Assembly (NCBI RefSeq): GCF_042453785.1
Contig: NC_091664.1
Location: forward strand, 10,637,001-10,701,000
Length of the DNA: 64,000 nucleotides
Direction of reading: 5' to 3'
Origin: Malus domestica
Lineage: Eukaryota > Streptophyta > Magnoliopsida > Rosales > Rosaceae
Positions 32,382 through 63,266 of the stretch are shown here, in pieces. The notes under the pieces are model-generated. The model was not told the DNA's origin. It did no database searches and was given only the letters and a program-made list of their open reading frames with translations. Made by a program: the position numbers and the translations under genes. Numbering within the stretch: the stretch's first letter is position 1; each line of letters starts with the position of its first letter.

Positions 32382-33623
32382 TCACAAAACCTTTACTAGG
32401 CGTACGATCTTATTCCTCAGCACCTTATCTTTCCAATCCAATATCGTCACTGGCTCCTCATCATAAGTTAAATCCAGATTAATTTCCAATGGTTGAGGAG
32501 GTATCACATGCAATGGATTAGAAACATAATGACGAAGCATAAAGACATTAAAAACATTGTGTACTTTAGACAACTCTGGAGGTAACTCAAGCCTGTAAGC
32601 AACTTCACTGACTTGCTCGGTGATTAGGTACAGTCCGATGTATCTAGGACTTAGCTTACATTTCTTCCCGAACCGTACCACGCCTTTCCACGGTGATAGC
32701 TTCAGAAACACCCAATCACTTACATTATACACTCGGTCAGTGGCATGCCTGTCTACTAAACTCTTCTGTCGATCCTGGGCCGCTTTCAAGTTAGATTTAA
32801 TTACATGAATATTCTGAGTAGTCTCATCCACAATCTCAAGGCCCACCAAAACAATTTTGCCAACCTCTGACCAACATAAAGGTGTACGACAAGATTTGCC
32901 ATAAAGTGCCTCAAATGGTGACATACCAATACTTGAATGAAAGCTGTTGTTATAGGCAAATTCCATTAAATCCAACCGCTTATGCCAAGCGTCACCAAAC
33001 TGCAATACTAAAGATCTCAGCATATCTTCCAACGTCTGAATAGTCCTCTCTGATTGTCCATCTGTTTAAGGATGATATGCTGTACTATAAAGTAATCTTG
33101 AACCAAGAGCTTCCTGGAATGCTATCCAGAACTTAGAAGCAAATCTAGGATCACGATCCGAGATAATACTAACTGGAACTCCATGGTACTTCACAATCTT
33201 CGATATGGACAATTCAGCTAATCGGCTTAAAGAATACTTCTCCCTCATAGGAATAAAATGTGCTGACTTAGTAAGCCGATCAACTATCACTCAAATGCCA
33301 TCATAACCATTATGTGTACGAGGAAGCTTGTACACAAAATCCATAGTAATATTTTCCCATTTCCACTGTGGAATGGGAAGTGGCTGCATCAATCCAAAAT
33401 GCTTCTTTCTTTCTGCTTTGACTTGTTGACAAATGACACACTTACTCACATATTCAGCAATTCCTCTTTTCATACCCGACCAATAATTAAATGGTCGAAT
33501 GGTATGATACATTTTAGTACCTCCTGGATGCATTGCATAAGCTGAAATATGTGCTTCATCAAGAATTACTTTCTTTAATTCCATATTATTCGGCACATAC
33601 ATTCTACTCTCCTGCATAAGCAT
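32382..33623 (-). pseudogene. Retrotransposon integrase (broken)
   Basis: Three minus-strand frames cover the integrase. 33291-33623 holds the end of the HHCC zinc module ('CVICQQVKAERKK') and the start of the core ('WENITMDFV'). 33066-33290 holds 'IVDRLTKSAHFIP' and 'SDRDPRFASKFW'. 32382-33032 holds 'AYNNSFHSSIGMSPFEALYGK' split by normal family spacing, plus the C-terminal region. Stops separate the frames at 33291 and 33063. A stop replaces the tryptophan expected after 'RLVKVL' at 32382, just before a chromodomain-like tail continuing to about 32330. It belongs to the Tekay-like element and is inactive. Confidence 0.88.
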
Positions 33624-33679
33624 GCCATCAGTTTCTCGAATTCTGATGTCTTTCTTCTTCCCCCGATTCCTTGCTTGAA

Positions 33680-34270
33680 TTATCTCCTGGTCTCTTCATC
33701 ATCCATCTGGGCTTCAAGTACACGATCAATTAAAATTGGCCTGACTTGAAAATTAGCAAGTAAGGCTTCCTCTTGATCTTCCACTCCTAACTTCACTCTA
33801 GTGGACCTCAAATCCGCAAGAATAGGAACATGACAAGCATAAAAAGCATTAAGTCTAACTAGAGTTTTCCTACTAAGTGCATCAACCACAACATTTGCAC
33901 AACCAGGGTGATACTTAATCGTGCAATCATAATCACTAAGCAACTCAACCCACCTTTGTTGCCGAAGATTAAGATCCCTCTGAGTAAAAAGATACTGAAG
34001 ACTCTTATGATATGTGAAGATCTTACATTTCTCATCATAAAGATAATGTCTCCAAATCTTCAAAGCAAAGATGATAGCTGCTAACTCCAGATCATGAGTA
34101 GGGTAATTCTTCTCATGATGCTTCAATGGTCGTGAAGCATAAGCAATCACCCTACCATGTTGCATCAACACACATCCCAGACCATTCAAGGAAGCATCCT
34201 TGTAGACCTTAAAATTACCACTATCATCTGGGAGTGCCAAAACAGGTGCATGAGTGAGATAATACTTCAA
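33680..34270 (-). pseudogene. Retrotransposon RNase H domain (broken)
   Basis: The frame contains the Ty3-type RNase H landmarks: '[15 protein letters not shown]', '[16 protein letters not shown]', '[10 protein letters not shown]' and '[16 protein letters not shown]'. The 'T-D-H-K' position reads T-Y-H-K, losing a conserved aspartate. It is cut off from the RT frame by stops between 34271 and 34480. Confidence 0.85.
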
Positions 34271-34480
34271 CTGCTGAAAACTTTGCTCACAATTATCATC
34301 CCATTCAAACTTAACTTATTTTCTAGTCAACCTCGTTAATGGCAAAGCAATGACTGAAAAATCCTTAACAAACAGTCTATAATAGCCTGCTAAGCCAAGA
34401 AAATTCCGTACCTCAGTGACGGTTCGTGGTTGTTCCCAATTCTCCACAATTGCCACTTTCTGAGAATCCACCTGAATACC

Positions 34481-35788
34481 TTAAGTAAAAATGACATTTC
34501 CCAAAAATGCCACTTGATCTAGCCAAAATTGGCATTTGCTAAACTTAGCATACAACTGATGTTCCCTCAATTTCTTCAACACCAAAGTAAGATTTCGAAC
34601 ATGCTTTAATTTAGACTTAGAGTATACCAGAATATCGTCAATGAAAACAATAACAAACATGTCTAGGAATTGCTGGAATACTCGATTCATTAAATCCATA
34701 AAAGTTGCAGGTGCATTAGTTAACCCAAATGGCATCACAAGAAACTCATAATGACCATATCGAGTCCTAAAAGCTGTCTTGGGAACATCTTCACTTTTAA
34801 TCTTCAATTGATAGTAACCAGACCTCAAATCAATCTTAGAAAAGACACAGGCACCTCGAAGCTGATCAAATAAATCGTCTATACGCGGCAATGGATAACG
34901 GTTTTTAATCGTTACCCGATTCAATTGCTTATAATCAATACATAGCCTCAAAGTTTTATCTTTCTTCCTTACAAACAAAACTGGAGCTCCCCAGGGTGAA
35001 GTACCAGGCTGAATAAAACCTTTATCGACTAATTCCTGCAACTGGACTTTCAATTCCCTCAATTCAATAGGAGCCATTCTATATGGAGTCAAAGATATAT
35101 GATCTGTACCTGGAAACATATCAATAGTGAACTCCACATCTCGGTCTAGCAGTAATCCAGGTAAATCATCGGGGAATACATCAGGAAAATGCATGACCAC
35201 TCGAACATCTTCCACACTACTAGAAGCATCATCATTCAGCACTACATGAGCTAAATATCCCTGGCAACCTTCTGATAACAACCTTTTTGCTCTTACAATA
35301 GAAATAACACCATGCCTCACCCCACTATGTTCACCCATAAAAGTAACTTCAGGTAATCCCGGACGATGGAAAGTAACTGTTTTCCCGTAGCAATCTATAT
35401 TGGCACGATTATAATGCAACCAATATGTGCCTAAAATCACCTATAACGGGATAAGATTTGCTAGCATAACTACCTCTTCCACCATCACTGGACATCCTGG
35501 ATATACACAATCAACATAACATCTCTCCCATCTAGGCATAGCAAACTCTAAATCATACCCTAGAGGTGTAGGATGAGGTTGCGTCACTTGAGCAAATGTA
35601 TGAGAAATGACAGAATGCGTAGCACCACAATTAATTAAAACTCTAGCAAATTGACCAAGAATGTTTAACATACCCATGATCAAGTCCAGATGATTTTGAG
35701 CATCCTGCAAAAAGATATTGTTAATACGTCCCTGGGCTGGTTGTCGTCCCCCACGACCTCTATTAGCTTGATTACCTTGCCCCTGCAC
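34481..35788 (-). pseudogene. Retrotransposon protease and reverse transcriptase (broken)
   Basis: 35441-35788 is the aspartic protease; its active-site triad reads N-C-G in 'NCGATHS' where D-S-G is expected. A stop at 35441-35443 separates it from 34481-35440, which holds the protease end ('ILGTYWL'), then RT motifs: 'LCIDYKQLN', '[10 protein letters not shown]', '[12 protein letters not shown]' and the catalytic '[10 protein letters not shown]'. The RT core is intact as a frame, but the N-terminal protease substitution, the internal stop and the premature end at 34481 make the pol product defective. Confidence 0.92.
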
Positions 35789-36067
35789 ACCTCGCCCCTA
35801 ACTTGGCTAACCAGATTGCCTTGAAGATCCTGCACTACTGAAAGCAATCTCTACTTGCTAGGGTTGTCCTCCCTGGTACCACTGAGATCCACCAGTTGGA
35901 ATGGGAGGATACGGCGTATACCCTCCAGGATACTAAGAATACCCACTTTGGTAATAAGGATCCTGCGAATACTGATATGGTCCTGGAGCATAAGGAGCGG
36001 CATCACCCTGATAATGGTAAGCACCACCTCGACCCATCTGACCATAACTACCAGACCCTTGAACTTG

Positions 36068-37135
36068 TTAGATCGGCTCTGGTGGTGGCATAGAAGGCTG
36101 ATGGGGCCTCTGCTGATTATGGGGACAATTTATAGCTCTATGTCCCATCTGCCCACAAGTAAAACATCCACTGCTGCCCTGCTTACACTCTCCGAAATGC
36201 CTATTATCACATTTGCGGCATAAAGGAGCACTTCCTCTTCCAAAATCTCCCTGCCTTTGGAATCTAGGACTGCCTGAAAATCTACCACCTCTCCTCTGAC
36301 CAGTGGCACTAAAACCTCCACTGGAAAAGTTGGAACTAGTTCCACTTCTCTTAAAGCTCTGAGTCTTGCAAGGTTCTTGAGAAGACTGACCTTTACCTGT
36401 ATCATCTCTCATCTGATTTCCATCATTTTCTTTATCCTCATTATCGCTGGGCATATTCTCCGAATCTTCAATTCACAGCAGAACCTCATAAAACTCTTGA
36501 TAAGTAGCACAGGAAGTTGTCGTCGCCATAGAACGCCACTTCTTTTTAGTACCCAATCTGAAGCGACGAAGCATCTCAACCGAATTAGTAACAACCTCCG
36601 GGTGGTAGCGAGATAAATCAGTAAACCTCCTGTAGTACTCATTAGCCGTCATCTTTCCCTGCTTTAGATTTGTAAACTTTTGTTTCTTGCAATCTATATA
36701 CTTTGGAGGAATAAATCTCTTATGAAATAACTGCTTAAAAACTTCCCAATCAACAACTTCTTCTGGTGATAGCTAATAAGACTCTTGTCTCCACCAGGAT
36801 GCAGGCTGCTCCCTTAAAAACCAGGTAGTCGTCTCAACCCACCTGTCATCTGGAAGATTTCCCTGTCTATGCATCAAATGGAAAGTCTTCTTAAGATGAT
36901 TAATCTATTTCTCTGCTCCTTTAGACCCTTCATTACCCAAGAAATGATTCAACTTCAAATTATAAAGAGTCTCAAGAGGTGTCCTTTCGGGAGGACAAAG
37001 AGAAGACTGAATAGCATTAGCAATAGCTTCCCCTAACTGAGCGATATCGGGGAAACTAGGCTCAACAGAATGACGTGGATTTCTATGAGACAGCATAGTT
37101 CTGACAGAAGACACCAAAATAATTACAAAATTCAC
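36068..37135 (-). pseudogene. Retrotransposon gag (broken)
   Basis: The start ATG side is at 37135 ('RNPRHSVEPSFPD'). A stop at 36905-36907 and later frameshifts break the capsid region. The last frame, 36068-36454, carries an Arg/Gly-rich segment and two cysteine knuckles, 'CRKCDNRHFGEC' and 'CFTCGQMGHRAINC' (the second a canonical CCHC). Another stop region separates it from the protease. Confidence 0.88.
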
Positions 37136-59065: not shown

Positions 59066-59070
59066 AAAAC

Positions 59071-59427
59071 TGTTGATGCACAAAACCAGAGGTCTTGGAA
59101 CAACGAAAATCTGACCGTGGATCTGCAAGAAATGTAAATAACACAAGATGTATCGTGGTTCACCCCAATGTTTGGGCTACGTCCACACTGATTATGTATT
59201 TATCTGAGATGTGAGGAAGAGAACATCTGAATATGAGAGGGGATGTGAGAGGGGTGAGAAGGCTTCAGAAATGGCCTCTTCTAATTGTGAGGGTGAGGGG
59301 TTCTTTTATAGAATAAGGACTCTTCACTTATTACATATTTGCCCATTCCTTTAACACATAATTACATTTAAGTCCATCGAGTATTTGTACGAGATCTAAA
59401 TACGAGGCCCTAAATATGGTATAAACA
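59071..59427 (-). repeat. 3' LTR (357 bp) of the gene-capturing element
   Basis: TG...CA termini. Contains 'TTTTATAGAATAAGGACTC', the motif that is amplified in the internal array at 59645-60230. Confidence 0.9.
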
Positions 59428-59440
59428 GTAGTCCCCCAAG
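59428..59440 (-). other. Polypurine tract of the gene-capturing element
   Basis: Minus-strand CTTGGGGGACTAC directly before the 3' LTR start TGTTTATACC. The same 'AGTCCCCCAAGT' plus-strand string recurs at about 60099, 60196 and 60254, so tract-like copies exist inside the element. Confidence 0.65.
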
Positions 59441-59644
59441 TCTAAAGTTAAGAGAGTCTTTTGGCTGGAGACTTGAAATTCAGTCCATGTGTGGGCCGAA
59501 GTAACTAGATGTTGTCTTGAACTGATGTTCGATATGAGGCGGTGTTCAATCTGAAATAATGCTCAACTAGAAGTAGCACATGCTGCGAGGCTGCTTGGCT
59601 CGTGGCTTATGTTGCCTTGGTTGGCTCGGTTTGTGGCGTTGAAG

Positions 59645-60235
59645 GTGAGGGAGTCCCTTTTATAGAATAAGGGCTCGTTCCTCAATACATGAATGATGGG
59701 CTAGAGTTGATGCTCTCTAATGATGGTGAGGGAGTCCCTTTTATAAAATAAGGGCTCGCACCTCAGTACATGAATAATGGGTTAAGAGTGATGCTCGTGG
59801 CGAGGCGGTTGCTCAGCTGGGGGCGATGCTCTCTAACAAAGGTGAGGGAGTCCCTTTTATAGAATAAGGTCTCACTCCTCAATACATAAATATGGGCTAG
59901 AGTTGATGCTCGCGGGGAGGCGGTTGCTCAGTAGGCGGCGATGCTCTCTAATGATGGTGAGGGAGTCATTTTTATAGAATAAGGGCTTACTCATCAATAC
60001 ATAAATACGGGCTAGAGTTGATGTTCTCTAATGGTGGTGAGGGAGTCCCTTTTATAGAATAAGGGCTCGCACCTCAATACATGAATGATTGGCTAGAGTC
60101 CCCCAAGTATTTTTCATGAGTGCTCTCTAATGAAAGTGAGGGAGTCCCTTTTATAGAATAAGGGCTCACTCCTTAGTACATAGATAATGGGCAAAGTCCC
60201 CCAAGTATTTTTCATGAAGCCCAGTTGAGGCCCAA
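59645..60235. repeat. Tandem array derived from an LTR motif (six units)
   Basis: Six imperfect units start at about 59645, 59726, 59841, 59957, 60037 and 60136, each opening GGTGAGGGAGTCCCTTTTAT and continuing 'AGAATAAGGGCTC...TCAATACAT.AAT'. Unit lengths run from about 80 to 116 bp because of variable inserts (for example 'GAGGCGGTTGCTCAG' in units 2 and 3). The core resembles the LTR segment GAGGGGTTCTTTTATAGAAT, so the array seems to be expanded from LTR sequence. Confidence 0.85.
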
Positions 60236-60359
60236 TATATGGTACATAGTGTAGTCCCCCAAGTCTCCGGTCAATAGAGTCTGTTGGCTGGAGACTTCAA
60301 ATTGAATCCTTTTATGGGCCGAAATGGCGGTTGTTCGGAGGCGGTATTTGTATACCCTA

Positions 60360-60840
60360 CACTGAAGCTTTATAGGTGAAGCTTTGCATGTGAAGCTTTG
60401 AAGCTGGATCTCTGTAAATGAAGCTTTCGAAGCTGGAGCTCTGTAAATGAAGCTTTTGAAGCTAGAGCTTTTGTAAATGAAGCTTTTGAAGCTAATTGAC
60501 ATGAGTGATGCTCATGGATGTTGACATGAGTGATGCTCATGAATGTTTATGTATGATTGGATGAGTGATGCTCATGAATGTTTATGTATGATTGACATGA
60601 GTCATGCTCATGTATGAGTACTAGGCGTACTTTTAATCACCTGGTTGGTGGCATGAAGGAGAGTACGGGTTGTACATTTCATCACCTGGTTGGTGGCATG
60701 AATGGCTAGTTGCCAAATGATATTAGAGTACGGGTTGTACATTTCATCATCTGGTTGGTGGTAATAGCGGTAAGTTGCCAAATAATTTTTGGAGTACTGG
60801 GCGTACTTTTGATCACCTGGTTGGAGCTATTTTGGGCTTA
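60360..60840. repeat. Short tandem repeats (three types)
   Basis: 60360-60495: units around 'GAAGCTTT(T/C)GAAGCTGGAGCT...GTAAAT'. 60500-60625: 'GACATGAGTGATGCTCATG' and 'AATGTTTATGTATGATTG' alternate. 60620-60830: 'CACCTGGTTGGTGGCATGAA' and 'GAGTACGGGTTGTACATTTC' alternate, three to four times. All are non-coding; the minus-strand open frame 60212-60502 merely reads through the first type. Confidence 0.75.
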
Positions 60841-61285
60841 TGGACCTTCGCCCTCTACACAACATTCCAGCCCATTTATTTTGGGCTTTGCCTTTTTTTT
60901 TTTTTACCCTCTGATGGGGTTTATACAGATGTCTCCGAAAGATAAAAAATAATTTACACCATTCAGAAACAAGAAAAGTAAATCACATCATTCTGGTGGG
61001 GTGTTTATTCCTTGCTTTTGCTTTCTGCTGCACTCTCTCTGTCTCTTCACCTGATAGACAAAAGGAATCGTAATAATAGGAACCTTATGATTTTGCCCCT
61101 TTTCTTCTTTTCTCTTTCTTCTTTGCTCTTTTCTTTTTCTGCTGTATTGCAGGTTTACTGCATGGGTGAGGAGCGCAAAACCCTAGCAAAAGGTGGGTAG
61201 TCCAGCTGTAAAAGGTCAGTATCCAGGTGCTTTATCCCTTTTTCTTTTCCTGCTGCATTGCAGGTTGTTGAGTGGGAGGCATTTG

Positions 61286-61563
61286 GACAGCTGCCTAGTT
61301 CTTAGCAGCCTCACCGATTAGTCTCTCATTGTCAGAGAAAACCACCCATGAAGGGGTGATACGGTTACCCTGGTCATTGGCTATGATTTCCACGTGACCA
61401 TTCTTGTAAACACCAACACAGGAATAAGTGGTTCCAAGATCAATTCTAATGATTGTTCGAACTTGGTCACTTCTTCTTCCGCGATGGAAATTGCAAAAAG
61501 GCATCTGAATGTGACCATCGCAAGCATGACGAGAGATCCTCAAGCTCTCCACGAGCCAGCCAT
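61286..61563 (-). pseudogene. BiP (ER HSP70) first-exon fragment, captured
   Basis: The minus strand from ATG 61563 reads 'MAGSWRA', then after a stop a hydrophobic signal-like segment, then the HSP70 start '[20 protein letters not shown]', '[13 protein letters not shown]' and '[11 protein letters not shown]'. '[14 protein letters not shown]' with an ER signal is specific to the luminal chaperone BiP. Defects: TGA at 61540-61542 (codon 8), a 1-bp frameshift near the signal/ATPase junction, TAG at 61295-61297, and loss of similarity after about 61286. The preceding bases look like a 5' UTR. Only about 90 of roughly 660 residues are present; it is a relic inside the LTR element. Confidence 0.85.
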
Positions 61564-61607
61564 GGCGTCTGCGCAGAACGAAAACTCTCCGCGTCTTCTC
61601 TCTACGT

Positions 61608-61775
61608 CCGAGGATGACGGCGTCCTTAGGGTGGATGTAGTGGTCGACAGCCTAGCGGACGGTGTGTGCGCTCTCGTCAGAGAAGTTGACGATGACACCG
61701 AGCTTGCGGAGGGCTCCGGCGGTGGGGGTGGGAGTGGTGACGAGGGGAGTTGGGGTGGTGGATTATGATATGGGG
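61608..61775 (-). pseudogene. Universal stress protein (USP) fragment, captured
   Basis: Minus-strand frame reads a Thr/Pro-rich lead, then 'RKLGVIVNFSDESAHTVR', a TAG stop (61652-61654) where the family has tryptophan, then '[14 protein letters not shown]'. This matches the N-terminal beta1-alpha1-beta2 of plant USP proteins (consensus of the type R-K-I-x-V-A-V-D-x-S-x-E-S). The ATP-binding C-terminal part is absent. It sits between the LHCB6 and BiP fragments in the same orientation. The recognition rests on the family consensus from memory. Confidence 0.75.
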
Positions 61776-61897
61776 GAGTTGGGAAAGCTGCTGCATGTGA
61801 TTCATTTGGGTTTTGCAGAAGCTGCCCACAAGTTCATACATATATCTATGACAAACTTCGAATAATTATAATGTGGATGATAATATATGAAACTCAC

Positions 61898-62127
61898 GAG
61901 CCATTGAGCCACTCGGGGTCGATGAAGTTGCCATCGCCTTTAACCGCCGGGTTCCAAGACTTCTTTGCCATAACAGCAACCACAATGAACCTCTTAGGAG
62001 TAGGAGAAACACCACCAACCTTGCTTCCAACGGTGGCAGCAGAGAGCAAGGCCTGACTTCTCTTGCCCTCACATAAGAAGGCTGCCGAGTTCAACCCTTT
62101 GAGCCCCGCACCGGTGGTTGCTGCCAT
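61898..62127 (-). pseudogene. LHCB6: LHCB6 (CP24) first-exon fragment with retained intron start, captured
   Basis: The minus-strand ATG at 62127 opens 77 codons: transit peptide 'MAATTGAGLKGLNSAAF', 'GKRSQALLSAATVG', then mature start 'AKKSW' and 'FIDPEWLNGS', the N-terminus of the photosystem II antenna protein CP24. After GS a GTGAGT donor follows and the sequence runs into apparent intron (to about 61790), so the copy is from unspliced sequence. A 5' UTR (to about 62165) is included. The frame is open, but the three membrane helices and chlorophyll ligands are missing; it cannot make an antenna protein. Confidence 0.85.
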
Positions 62128-62431
62128 CTCTCTCTCCCCCCTCTTTCTTTCTAGAACTAAGAAAAAATAGAGACTCAGAGAGTTTTTCTGGTGGCAATAA
62201 ATGTTTGAGAGTTGTTTGGGTGGTGGTGTTTTCTCACCGTGAGTTTTAGAGAGAGAGAGTTTGCGGTGTTTTGTTTGAAGAGGTGAAAGAGATCAGAAGC
62301 AACAGAGAGAATTTTGGTTGTCATTTGGGTTTTGCAGATCCATGGTGGACAGTGGTGAGGTTGTGAAGGTTTCACGGTGGTGAGATGGAAAATTGAAATA
62401 GAACCGACATAGTTTTTTGTGTCGATTCCCA

Positions 62432-62445
62432 TAGACGGCGCCAAA
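62432..62445 (-). other. Primer-binding-site-like sequence of the gene-capturing element
   Basis: Directly inside the 5' LTR, the minus strand reads TTTGGCGCCGTCTA. TGGCGCCGT equals the first nine bases complementary to the 3' end of plant tRNA-Asp, as used by Athila/Tat-type elements; the match then decays. Confidence 0.6.
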
Positions 62446-62802
62446 TGTTGATGCACAAAACCGGAGGTCTTGGAACAACGTAAATCTGACCGTGAATCTG
62501 CAAGAAATGTAAATAACACAAGATGTATCGTGTTTCACCCTAAGGTTTGGGCTATGTCCACATTGATTATGTATTTATCTAAGATGTGAGGGAGAGAACC
62601 TCTGAATATGAGAGGGGACGTAAGAGGGGTGATAAGGCTTCAGAAATGGCCTCCTCTAATTGTGAGGGTGATGGGTCCTTTTATAGAATAAGGACTCCTT
62701 ACTTATTACATATTTGCCCATTCCTTTATCACATAATTACATTTAAGTCCCTCGAGTATTTGTACGAGATCTAAATACGAGGCCCTAAATATGGTATAAA
62801 CA
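62446..62802 (-). repeat. 5' LTR (357 bp) of the gene-capturing element
   Basis: Direct copy of 59071-59427 with about 20 substitutions and no evident indels. Flanked outside by AAAAC. Confidence 0.9.
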
Positions 62803-63266
62803 AAAACCAATTAAAAATATAAAAAAATTATATATAAATATATACACACACACACATAACCACGTTCTTTCACTTTACACTACATTTCAATATTTTCAAA
62901 TATTTTAAACCAATATTTTATTATAATTTGAAATTTGAAATAAAAATATTTTATTATTTTGTAAAATAAAAAATACTAATATTTTAATACGAATTGCCTG
63001 AGCTATTCAATTTATGGGTAAAGATGCACTGAGGCAGCTATTGTTCACTGCACAAAGTTATTGTTCATTTAAAGGGATTAAGTTGCCTATTACCTAGGAG
63101 CCTTACTACACTAGAAGTGCTCTAATAATGTGTGATGTTTGTGTTTTGGGCACATTGAAAAATCTCTACTCAAATTGAGACTCTCCATGCTCTGTCACCT
63201 CACATTTTATTGTCAACTTTTGTGCCAACATTAAAACATTGTGTCAAAAATATGAACCTCCTTAGA

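Follow-up and report, generated by a model that had tools for sequence, protein, structure and literature searches.

A 64,000-nucleotide stretch of the Malus domestica genome (the window; contig NC_091664.1, here C4:10637001-10701000, of the assembly GCF_042453785.1 with 651 Mb in 19 contigs) harbors a complete long terminal repeat (LTR) retrotransposon at 59071-62802. It is 3732 bp long, reads on the minus strand and carries pieces of host genes encoding LHCB6, a universal stress protein (USP) and BiP. This gene-less LTR element belongs to a genome-wide family, whose copies differ in the patchworks that they carry; many of these can be traced to host genes. We consider it likely that the family is non-autonomous and combines a fixed frame with an exchangeable payload, which is gained by template switching onto packaged host RNAs.

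The features are listed below by window position; the element coordinate, el, equals 62803 minus this position.
59066..59070, no strand: target-site duplication (TSD) AAAAC, left copy, read directly
59071..59427, minus: 3' LTR, 357 bp, 94.1% identity to the 5' LTR (Kimura two-parameter distance 0.0615)
59428..59441 (59441-59428), minus: polypurine-tract-like (PPT-like), purine-rich ACTTGGGGGACTAC, adjoining the 3' LTR
59640..60217, minus: tandem array of 80-115-bp units with six TATA-like motifs resembling that of the LTR
60223..60892, minus: tandem arrays of short units (29, 25-35 and 65 bp) that recur in family copies
60893..61140, minus: 3' region R3, found whole or partially in the 40 scored genome places
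61141..61286, minus: further payload after BiP with no assigned donor, possibly a fourth gene
61287..61612, minus: BiP fragment, 5' untranslated region (UTR), exon 1 and part of exon 2; a 948-bp donor intron is absent
61610..61819, minus: USP fragment, which we take to be PHOS32-like; end of the 5'UTR, start codon and part of the coding sequence
61820..61832, minus: 13-nt remnant not in the LHCB6 donor, common to copy L054 with one change
61833..62259, minus: LHCB6 (CP24) fragment, 5'UTR, exon 1 (ATG at 62127), GTGAGT donor at 61897 and 65 nt of intron 1
62248..62445, minus: element leader, wholly or partly common to other family copies, with a CT repeat at its end
62426..62445 (62445-62426), minus: primer-binding-like site (PBS-like) TTTGGCGCCGTCTATGGGAA, adjoining the 5' LTR
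62446..62802, minus: 5' LTR, 357 bp, TATA-like TTCTATAAAAGGAC near 62685
62803..62807, no strand: TSD AAAAC, right copy, read directly

In the orientation of the element the LTRs read TGTTTATACC...GCATCAACA, and they differ at 21 of 357 sites without a gap (13 transitions and 8 transversions). The paired TG..CA LTRs, the 5-bp TSD and the PBS-like and PPT-like sites in their expected places identify an LTR retrotransposon. The PBS-like site TTTGGCGCCGTCTATGGGAA presumably resembles the tRNA-Asp type. We did not see a gag-pol, the mark of an autonomous element; the longest stop-to-stop open reading frame (ORF) overlapping the element has 138 amino acids. An initial annotation of this DNA had described a non-autonomous LTR element with matching 357-bp LTRs, a perfect AAAAC duplication, a PBS-like site, a PPT and no gag-pol, all of which is borne out by direct reading. 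A Pfam scan of 10 sequences gave HSP70, in the BiP part, as the sole match passing the cut-off, and Rfam and tRNA scans of the window gave no matches.

The possibility that the two repeats were unrelated to LTR elements genome-wide is answered by the copy number of the family. Searching the genome with the LTR gave 3887 first-look candidates, and the 40 places that were scored, including the two LTRs of the window, matched at 92-100%. A further search used 60890-61320, the stretch that includes R3; of its 1842 candidates, the 40 scored all matched, mostly over R3 alone. Loci were fetched as best matches to the LTR, R3 or the LHCB6 block. Among these, 51 have the leader, and their payloads end at R3 in 28 cases and are cut by the end of the locus in 23. 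In 16 copies with leader and R3, the payload in between measures 0.95-1.45 kb. An all-against-all blastn of these 16 found one payload in common, that of the window copy and a copy on C13; everything else that matched was a leader remnant, a CT repeat or a 63-nt 3' edge.

The C13 copy lies at C13:42450618-42453432 (in L051). It has the same order of leader, LHCB6, USP and BiP, shows 91-96% identity to the window copy over the aligned parts, and has an internal loss in BiP. It is flanked by its own TSD, ATACT/ATACT; its LTRs are 94.4% alike and the 3' LTR begins with TA. The chimera has therefore moved as a unit and inserted more than once.

The start of LHCB6 beside the leader is common to six copies (window, C13, L054, L056, L058 and L059). 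Likeness to the window copy ends after about 430 nt in L054, 350 nt in L056, 210 nt in L058 and 170 nt in L059, where other sequence follows; L056 and L058 share a further 81 nt. The same pattern of a shared payload start and subsequent divergence is found in L060/L061/L066, L062/L069, L063/L064/L067/L070 and L071/L080. Such partial exchanges would be expected under switching between RNA templates, from element to host or from element to element. Provided that nothing was lost later, LHCB6 was probably captured before USP and BiP, because there are copies with LHCB6 that lack USP-BiP and none of the converse; a USP-BiP copy without LHCB6 was not found among 24 candidates, all of which were scored.

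Sense ORFs in the payloads of other copies match many protein families. We compared the three longest sense and the three longest antisense ORFs of 49 payloads other than those of the window and C13 copies, some of them sharing payload parts, with Pfam (E<=1e-3). The 147 sense ORFs matched 36 families and the 147 antisense ORFs matched one. The sense families include ADP/ATP transporter, PMR5, inositol-phosphate kinase, Alfin, NDUFA5, oleosin, copper transporter, TRAP-beta, YTH, ferritin, cytokinin dehydrogenase, DnaJ, linker histone, SBP, SecY, papain and Myb, among others, and no retroelement protein is among the 25 listed of the 36. The single antisense match, a cupin (Cupin_1, E 6.6e-19), is the one exception to the sense rule.

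All three pieces of the window element are sense to the LTR and match genes of the same genome. LHCB6 matches CP24 chains in PDB (best E 1.7e-14), and the block matches two genes in the whole genome, C8:28146211 at 93.2% and C15:51661314 at 87.1% (62 candidates, 40 scored). Its left edge lies within the CT repeat 62248-62259, in the donor 5'UTR, and its right end lies in intron 1, of which 65 of the 85 nt in the donor are kept with an intact GTGAGT at the start; the exon frame is open over 77 codons. Its template was therefore RNA or DNA with intron 1 still present. The USP piece aligns with C11:32543328-32543608 in three parts (88-100%; 87.5% over 128 nt), where the donor gene reads MNHTQQPSQPQDLSDPQLPNIRIHHPNSPRHH...TPTPTAGARRKLGVAVDLSDESAHAVRWAVDHYIRPGDAVILLHV; a relative on C3 matches at 75%. 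It contains one stop and one frameshift. Scans of the USP piece against Pfam and PDB, partly in a wrong frame, gave no match, a protein database search with a wrong-frame N-terminus gave one candidate and nothing significant, and a search of papers for the peptide string gave no match. An ORF joined across pieces, MDLQNPNESH..., was considered as the start of USP and rejected, as the MDLQ frame is the wrong frame relative to the donor. BiP is identified by an HSP70/BiP match and by its donor at C6:24072601-24073872 (94.5% over 326 nt), which matches in two parts, 24072601-24072706 (95%) and 24073658-24073872 (94%); a second BiP gene on C14 matches lower, at 82 and 90%. LHCB6 and BiP are thus each nearer to one of two duplicate genes. 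The donor intron of 948 bp (GTGAGT...ACAG) is missing from the BiP piece, with a same-length join near 61503-61507, and BiP therefore derives from spliced RNA. Codon 8 of the BiP piece is a stop, and one base has been lost.

We traced donors in four payloads, namely those of the window, of L036 and L038, which have recognisable genes, and of L054, which shares LHCB6. Each contains pieces of at least three host regions. In L038, a first gene from C14 matches as q10-472 and q473-541 with approximately 528 bp between the parts in the genome, and C6 splits at the same base; it is accompanied by a COPT copper transporter from C12 (q517-1004, 93%) and by a papain-type protease from C6 (97%), whose two matching parts lie approximately 107 bp apart in the genome. 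A further stretch has matches on C5, C10 and C13 and is an uncertain gene candidate. L036 has up to six candidate donor regions within 956 bp. These include TRAP-beta on C17, with approximately 1.4 kb between the parts and C9 splitting within one base, and a presumably SR-protein-like piece matching C3 and C11; the payload recurs, whole or partially, at C13:29890453, C11:23654545 and C17:34093409. After LHCB6, L054 has two genes whose matches are broken by genomic gaps of 96 and 92 bp, each with a second locus broken in a similar way. It also has one further stretch whose matches may include other element copies. Counting BiP, six donor matches are split at genomic gaps that are absent from the payload. 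In five of the six, papain being the exception, a second locus also shows its split at this query base or close to it.

These results support the earlier proposal of serial capture of unrelated host genes, with donors on C8 (LHCB6), C11 (USP) and C6 (BiP), and the DNA matches confirm three gene fragments in one orientation, sense to the element. The description of the fragments as first exons holds in that LHCB6 and BiP comprise 5'UTR and exon 1; it fails in that LHCB6 adds intron sequence, BiP adds part of exon 2, and USP consists of a 5'UTR end and partial coding sequence. Capture of 5' ends as a rule is not supported, as internal or C-terminal pieces occur in other copies: TRAP-beta covers profile positions 44-83 of 178 and the ADP/ATP transporter 312-472 of 491. 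The analogy to Pack-MULEs gains support from the other host pieces in other family copies. Antisense potential of a transcript from the LTR had also been proposed; antisense RNA from the LTR is unlikely because the pieces lie in sense orientation. By default, we regard the payload pieces as passengers.

Short overlaps are found at the junctions, i.e. the CT repeat between leader and LHCB6, TCTG between the LHCB6 lineage and USP, CTC between USP and BiP, and 7 nt in L038. A perfect 18-nt direct repeat lies on either side of the LHCB6 block, at 62321-62338 in the leader and at 61802-61819 in the 5'UTR and start of USP. The longest exact repeat in 300 shuffles of el 431-1662 was 13. Over these 18 nt, leader and USP gene both read TCTGCAAAACCCAAATGA; the identity depends on AAATGA in the leader, where four other LHCB6 copies have AAGAGA, and the leader of L071 also has AAATGA. 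One possibility is that USP cDNA paired with the leader during capture. That the fragments were separate later insertions with TSDs of their own had been named as an alternative. The repeat was the sole apparent case and is not a TSD: insertion of LHCB6 into USP is rejected by the donor sequence, in which the copy beside USP is the native 5'UTR and start; the other copy is leader, and the left edge of LHCB6 lies approximately 60-90 nt away.

We suggest the following course of events. The fixed frame would consist of LTR, leader, 3' tandem-repeat region, PPT and LTR, with the payload swapped in between. Host RNAs, mostly spliced, would be packaged together with element RNA, and reverse transcription would take place in particles supplied by some helper. 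The enzyme may leave the element RNA, copy stretches of host RNA and return to an element RNA, so that each round would replace part of an older payload with new sense host pieces; switching between element RNAs would reshuffle the pieces. In this lineage LHCB6 would have been taken first, followed by USP and BiP, after which the chimera would have inserted at least twice. We looked for a helper in a pair of family LTRs on C13 (described below); 3 kb of its middle contains another family leader, with no gag-pol-like ORF seen by eye.

Patching of gene pieces into element copies at the DNA level, through break repair or ectopic recombination (routes suggested for certain DNA transposons), would account for the part of intron 1 in LHCB6 and for a direct repeat around this block that exceeds the shuffle maximum. 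We nevertheless consider it unlikely, given the six donor matches interrupted by genomic sequence absent from the payloads, the strong sense bias, and the fact that the repeat copy by USP is native to that gene while the LHCB6 edge is elsewhere. Processed retrocopies, made for instance via long interspersed nuclear elements and inserted later and independently into element copies, could explain why the pieces are mostly intronless where this is visible and why the source genes vary. Such insertions would not give the sense bias or place payloads between the same leader and 3' region, and no poly(A) tail or own TSD is seen at the edges of the three pieces in the window element, which makes this route very improbable. 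We give least credence of all to read-through transduction of neighbouring genes, a host-capture route of retrotransposons according to PMC13317346, since the donors of one payload are on different chromosomes and the pieces lie between the native leader and the native 3' region.

Several points weigh against template switching onto packaged host RNAs as set out above. The intron sequence in LHCB6 requires at least one unspliced template, and the 18-nt identity of leader and USP is left unexplained by it. Exchange does not always appear to be anchored on the 5' side, as C17:34093409 shares the 3' part only of the L036 payload and C15:21433106 the 3' part only of that of L054. Host domains were found by Pfam (E<=1e-3) in only 5 of 14 complete payloads with leader A (L029, L034, L036, L038 and L047, the first via an ORF not among its three longest); L050 (0.0013) and L043 (0.005) narrowly miss this threshold, and the remaining seven have no match in their top three ORFs. 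It should be noted that Pfam undercounts captured host pieces, as L036 has one family and several donor regions. L036, L038 and L054 were chosen for their recognisable genes or shared LHCB6, and some donor regions may be other element copies. Splice sites were read for BiP only, and the splice tally is one-sided, as a complete retained intron would, in alignments made without gene models, give an unbroken match and escape notice.

Gene capture by LTR elements, even of several genes, is already known. The maize Bs1 element carries segments of three host genes (PMC13317346), as exons only (PMC4717578), and is in this respect like the window element. Bs1 is reported as a single element whose chimeric gene is transcribed and translated, whereas here there are several copies with differing payloads and no long chimeric ORF in the window copy. 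The soybean terminal-repeat retrotransposon in miniature (TRIM) GmaRetroS15 has pieces of three host genes, exons without introns and one a 5'UTR, in more than one copy (PMC4717578), and thus also resembles the window element in combining three genes in one small LTR element with multiple copies. Gene-bearing TRIMs measure 1.17-1.45 kb and comprise 30 elements in 7 subfamilies in all (PMC4717578); the element described here differs by its 357-bp LTRs, length of 3.7 kb, tandem-repeat 3' region and payload that varies among copies. In maize, 425 LTR elements with gene fragments from at least 189 captures are recorded in PMC2774510, which found none that combines fragments from two or more standard nuclear genes; carriage of host fragments is similar here, but the four searched payloads hold several each. 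Pack-MULEs are alike in forming a transposon family with differing host fragments in many of its members, at times from several genes. They differ in being DNA transposons whose captured pieces include introns (as described in PMC4717578), in contrast to the mostly spliced sense pieces between LTRs found here. In the open-licence literature we found no described family with multi-gene mosaics that differ from copy to copy, and a term search of PMC11197308, on Rosaceae transposable elements, found no mention of capture or gene fragments.

Capture by LTR elements has mostly been described in isolated elements, and arguments about its mechanism rely on few cases. With a constant frame, varied payloads, donors within one genome and sets of copies that diverge after a shared captured start, the mechanism becomes readable here, and junction positions, microhomology, splicing state and capture order are countable. 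The results suggest that one retrotransposon family can spread sense fragments of many unrelated genes over a genome. We see an even chance that the family habitually swaps its internal region for host mRNA mosaics, with many, perhaps thousands of, copies bearing individual sense chimeras, and is a retrotransposon equivalent of Pack-MULEs that keeps supplying chimeric transcripts or small RNAs.

Within the window copy, the stretch 61141-61286 gave no donor among the candidates scored (40 of 1842), and among these 40 only the window and C13 copies cover it. The array before the 3' LTR has six TATA-like motifs at 59664-60155, mostly TTCTATAAAAGGGACTC, which resemble the TATA region of the LTR and may be promoter-like repeats inside the element. 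At C13:13134102-13141984, two family LTRs lie approximately 7.5 kb apart with a further leader in between, which suggests tandem or nested family elements.

The element does not fall into three other named classes. TRIMs have very small LTRs and a total length of around 1 kb, compared with 357 and 3732 bp here. Large retrotransposon derivatives have very large LTRs and a conserved noncoding internal domain; here the LTRs have 357 bp and the middle differs among copies. Pack-MULEs have terminal inverted repeats and a 9-bp TSD, and this element has direct LTRs and a 5-bp TSD. As in Bs1, processed host exons lie within an LTR pair, in the form of the intronless BiP; LHCB6 is not fully processed. 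The 3' tandem arrays are at most suggestive of the Tat/Ogre lineage of Ty3-gypsy elements, which is defined by relatedness of reverse transcriptase; the element has no such gene.

The element ends at 59071, approximately 780 bp upstream of the start codon (58291, minus strand, ORF to 55444) of a gene that we take to be leucine-rich repeat receptor-kinase-like. Element and gene have the same orientation, and the 3' LTR therefore points at this gene. At 32382-36472 (minus strand), the window also has ORFs that by eye presumably resemble Ty3-gypsy gag, reverse transcriptase and integrase.

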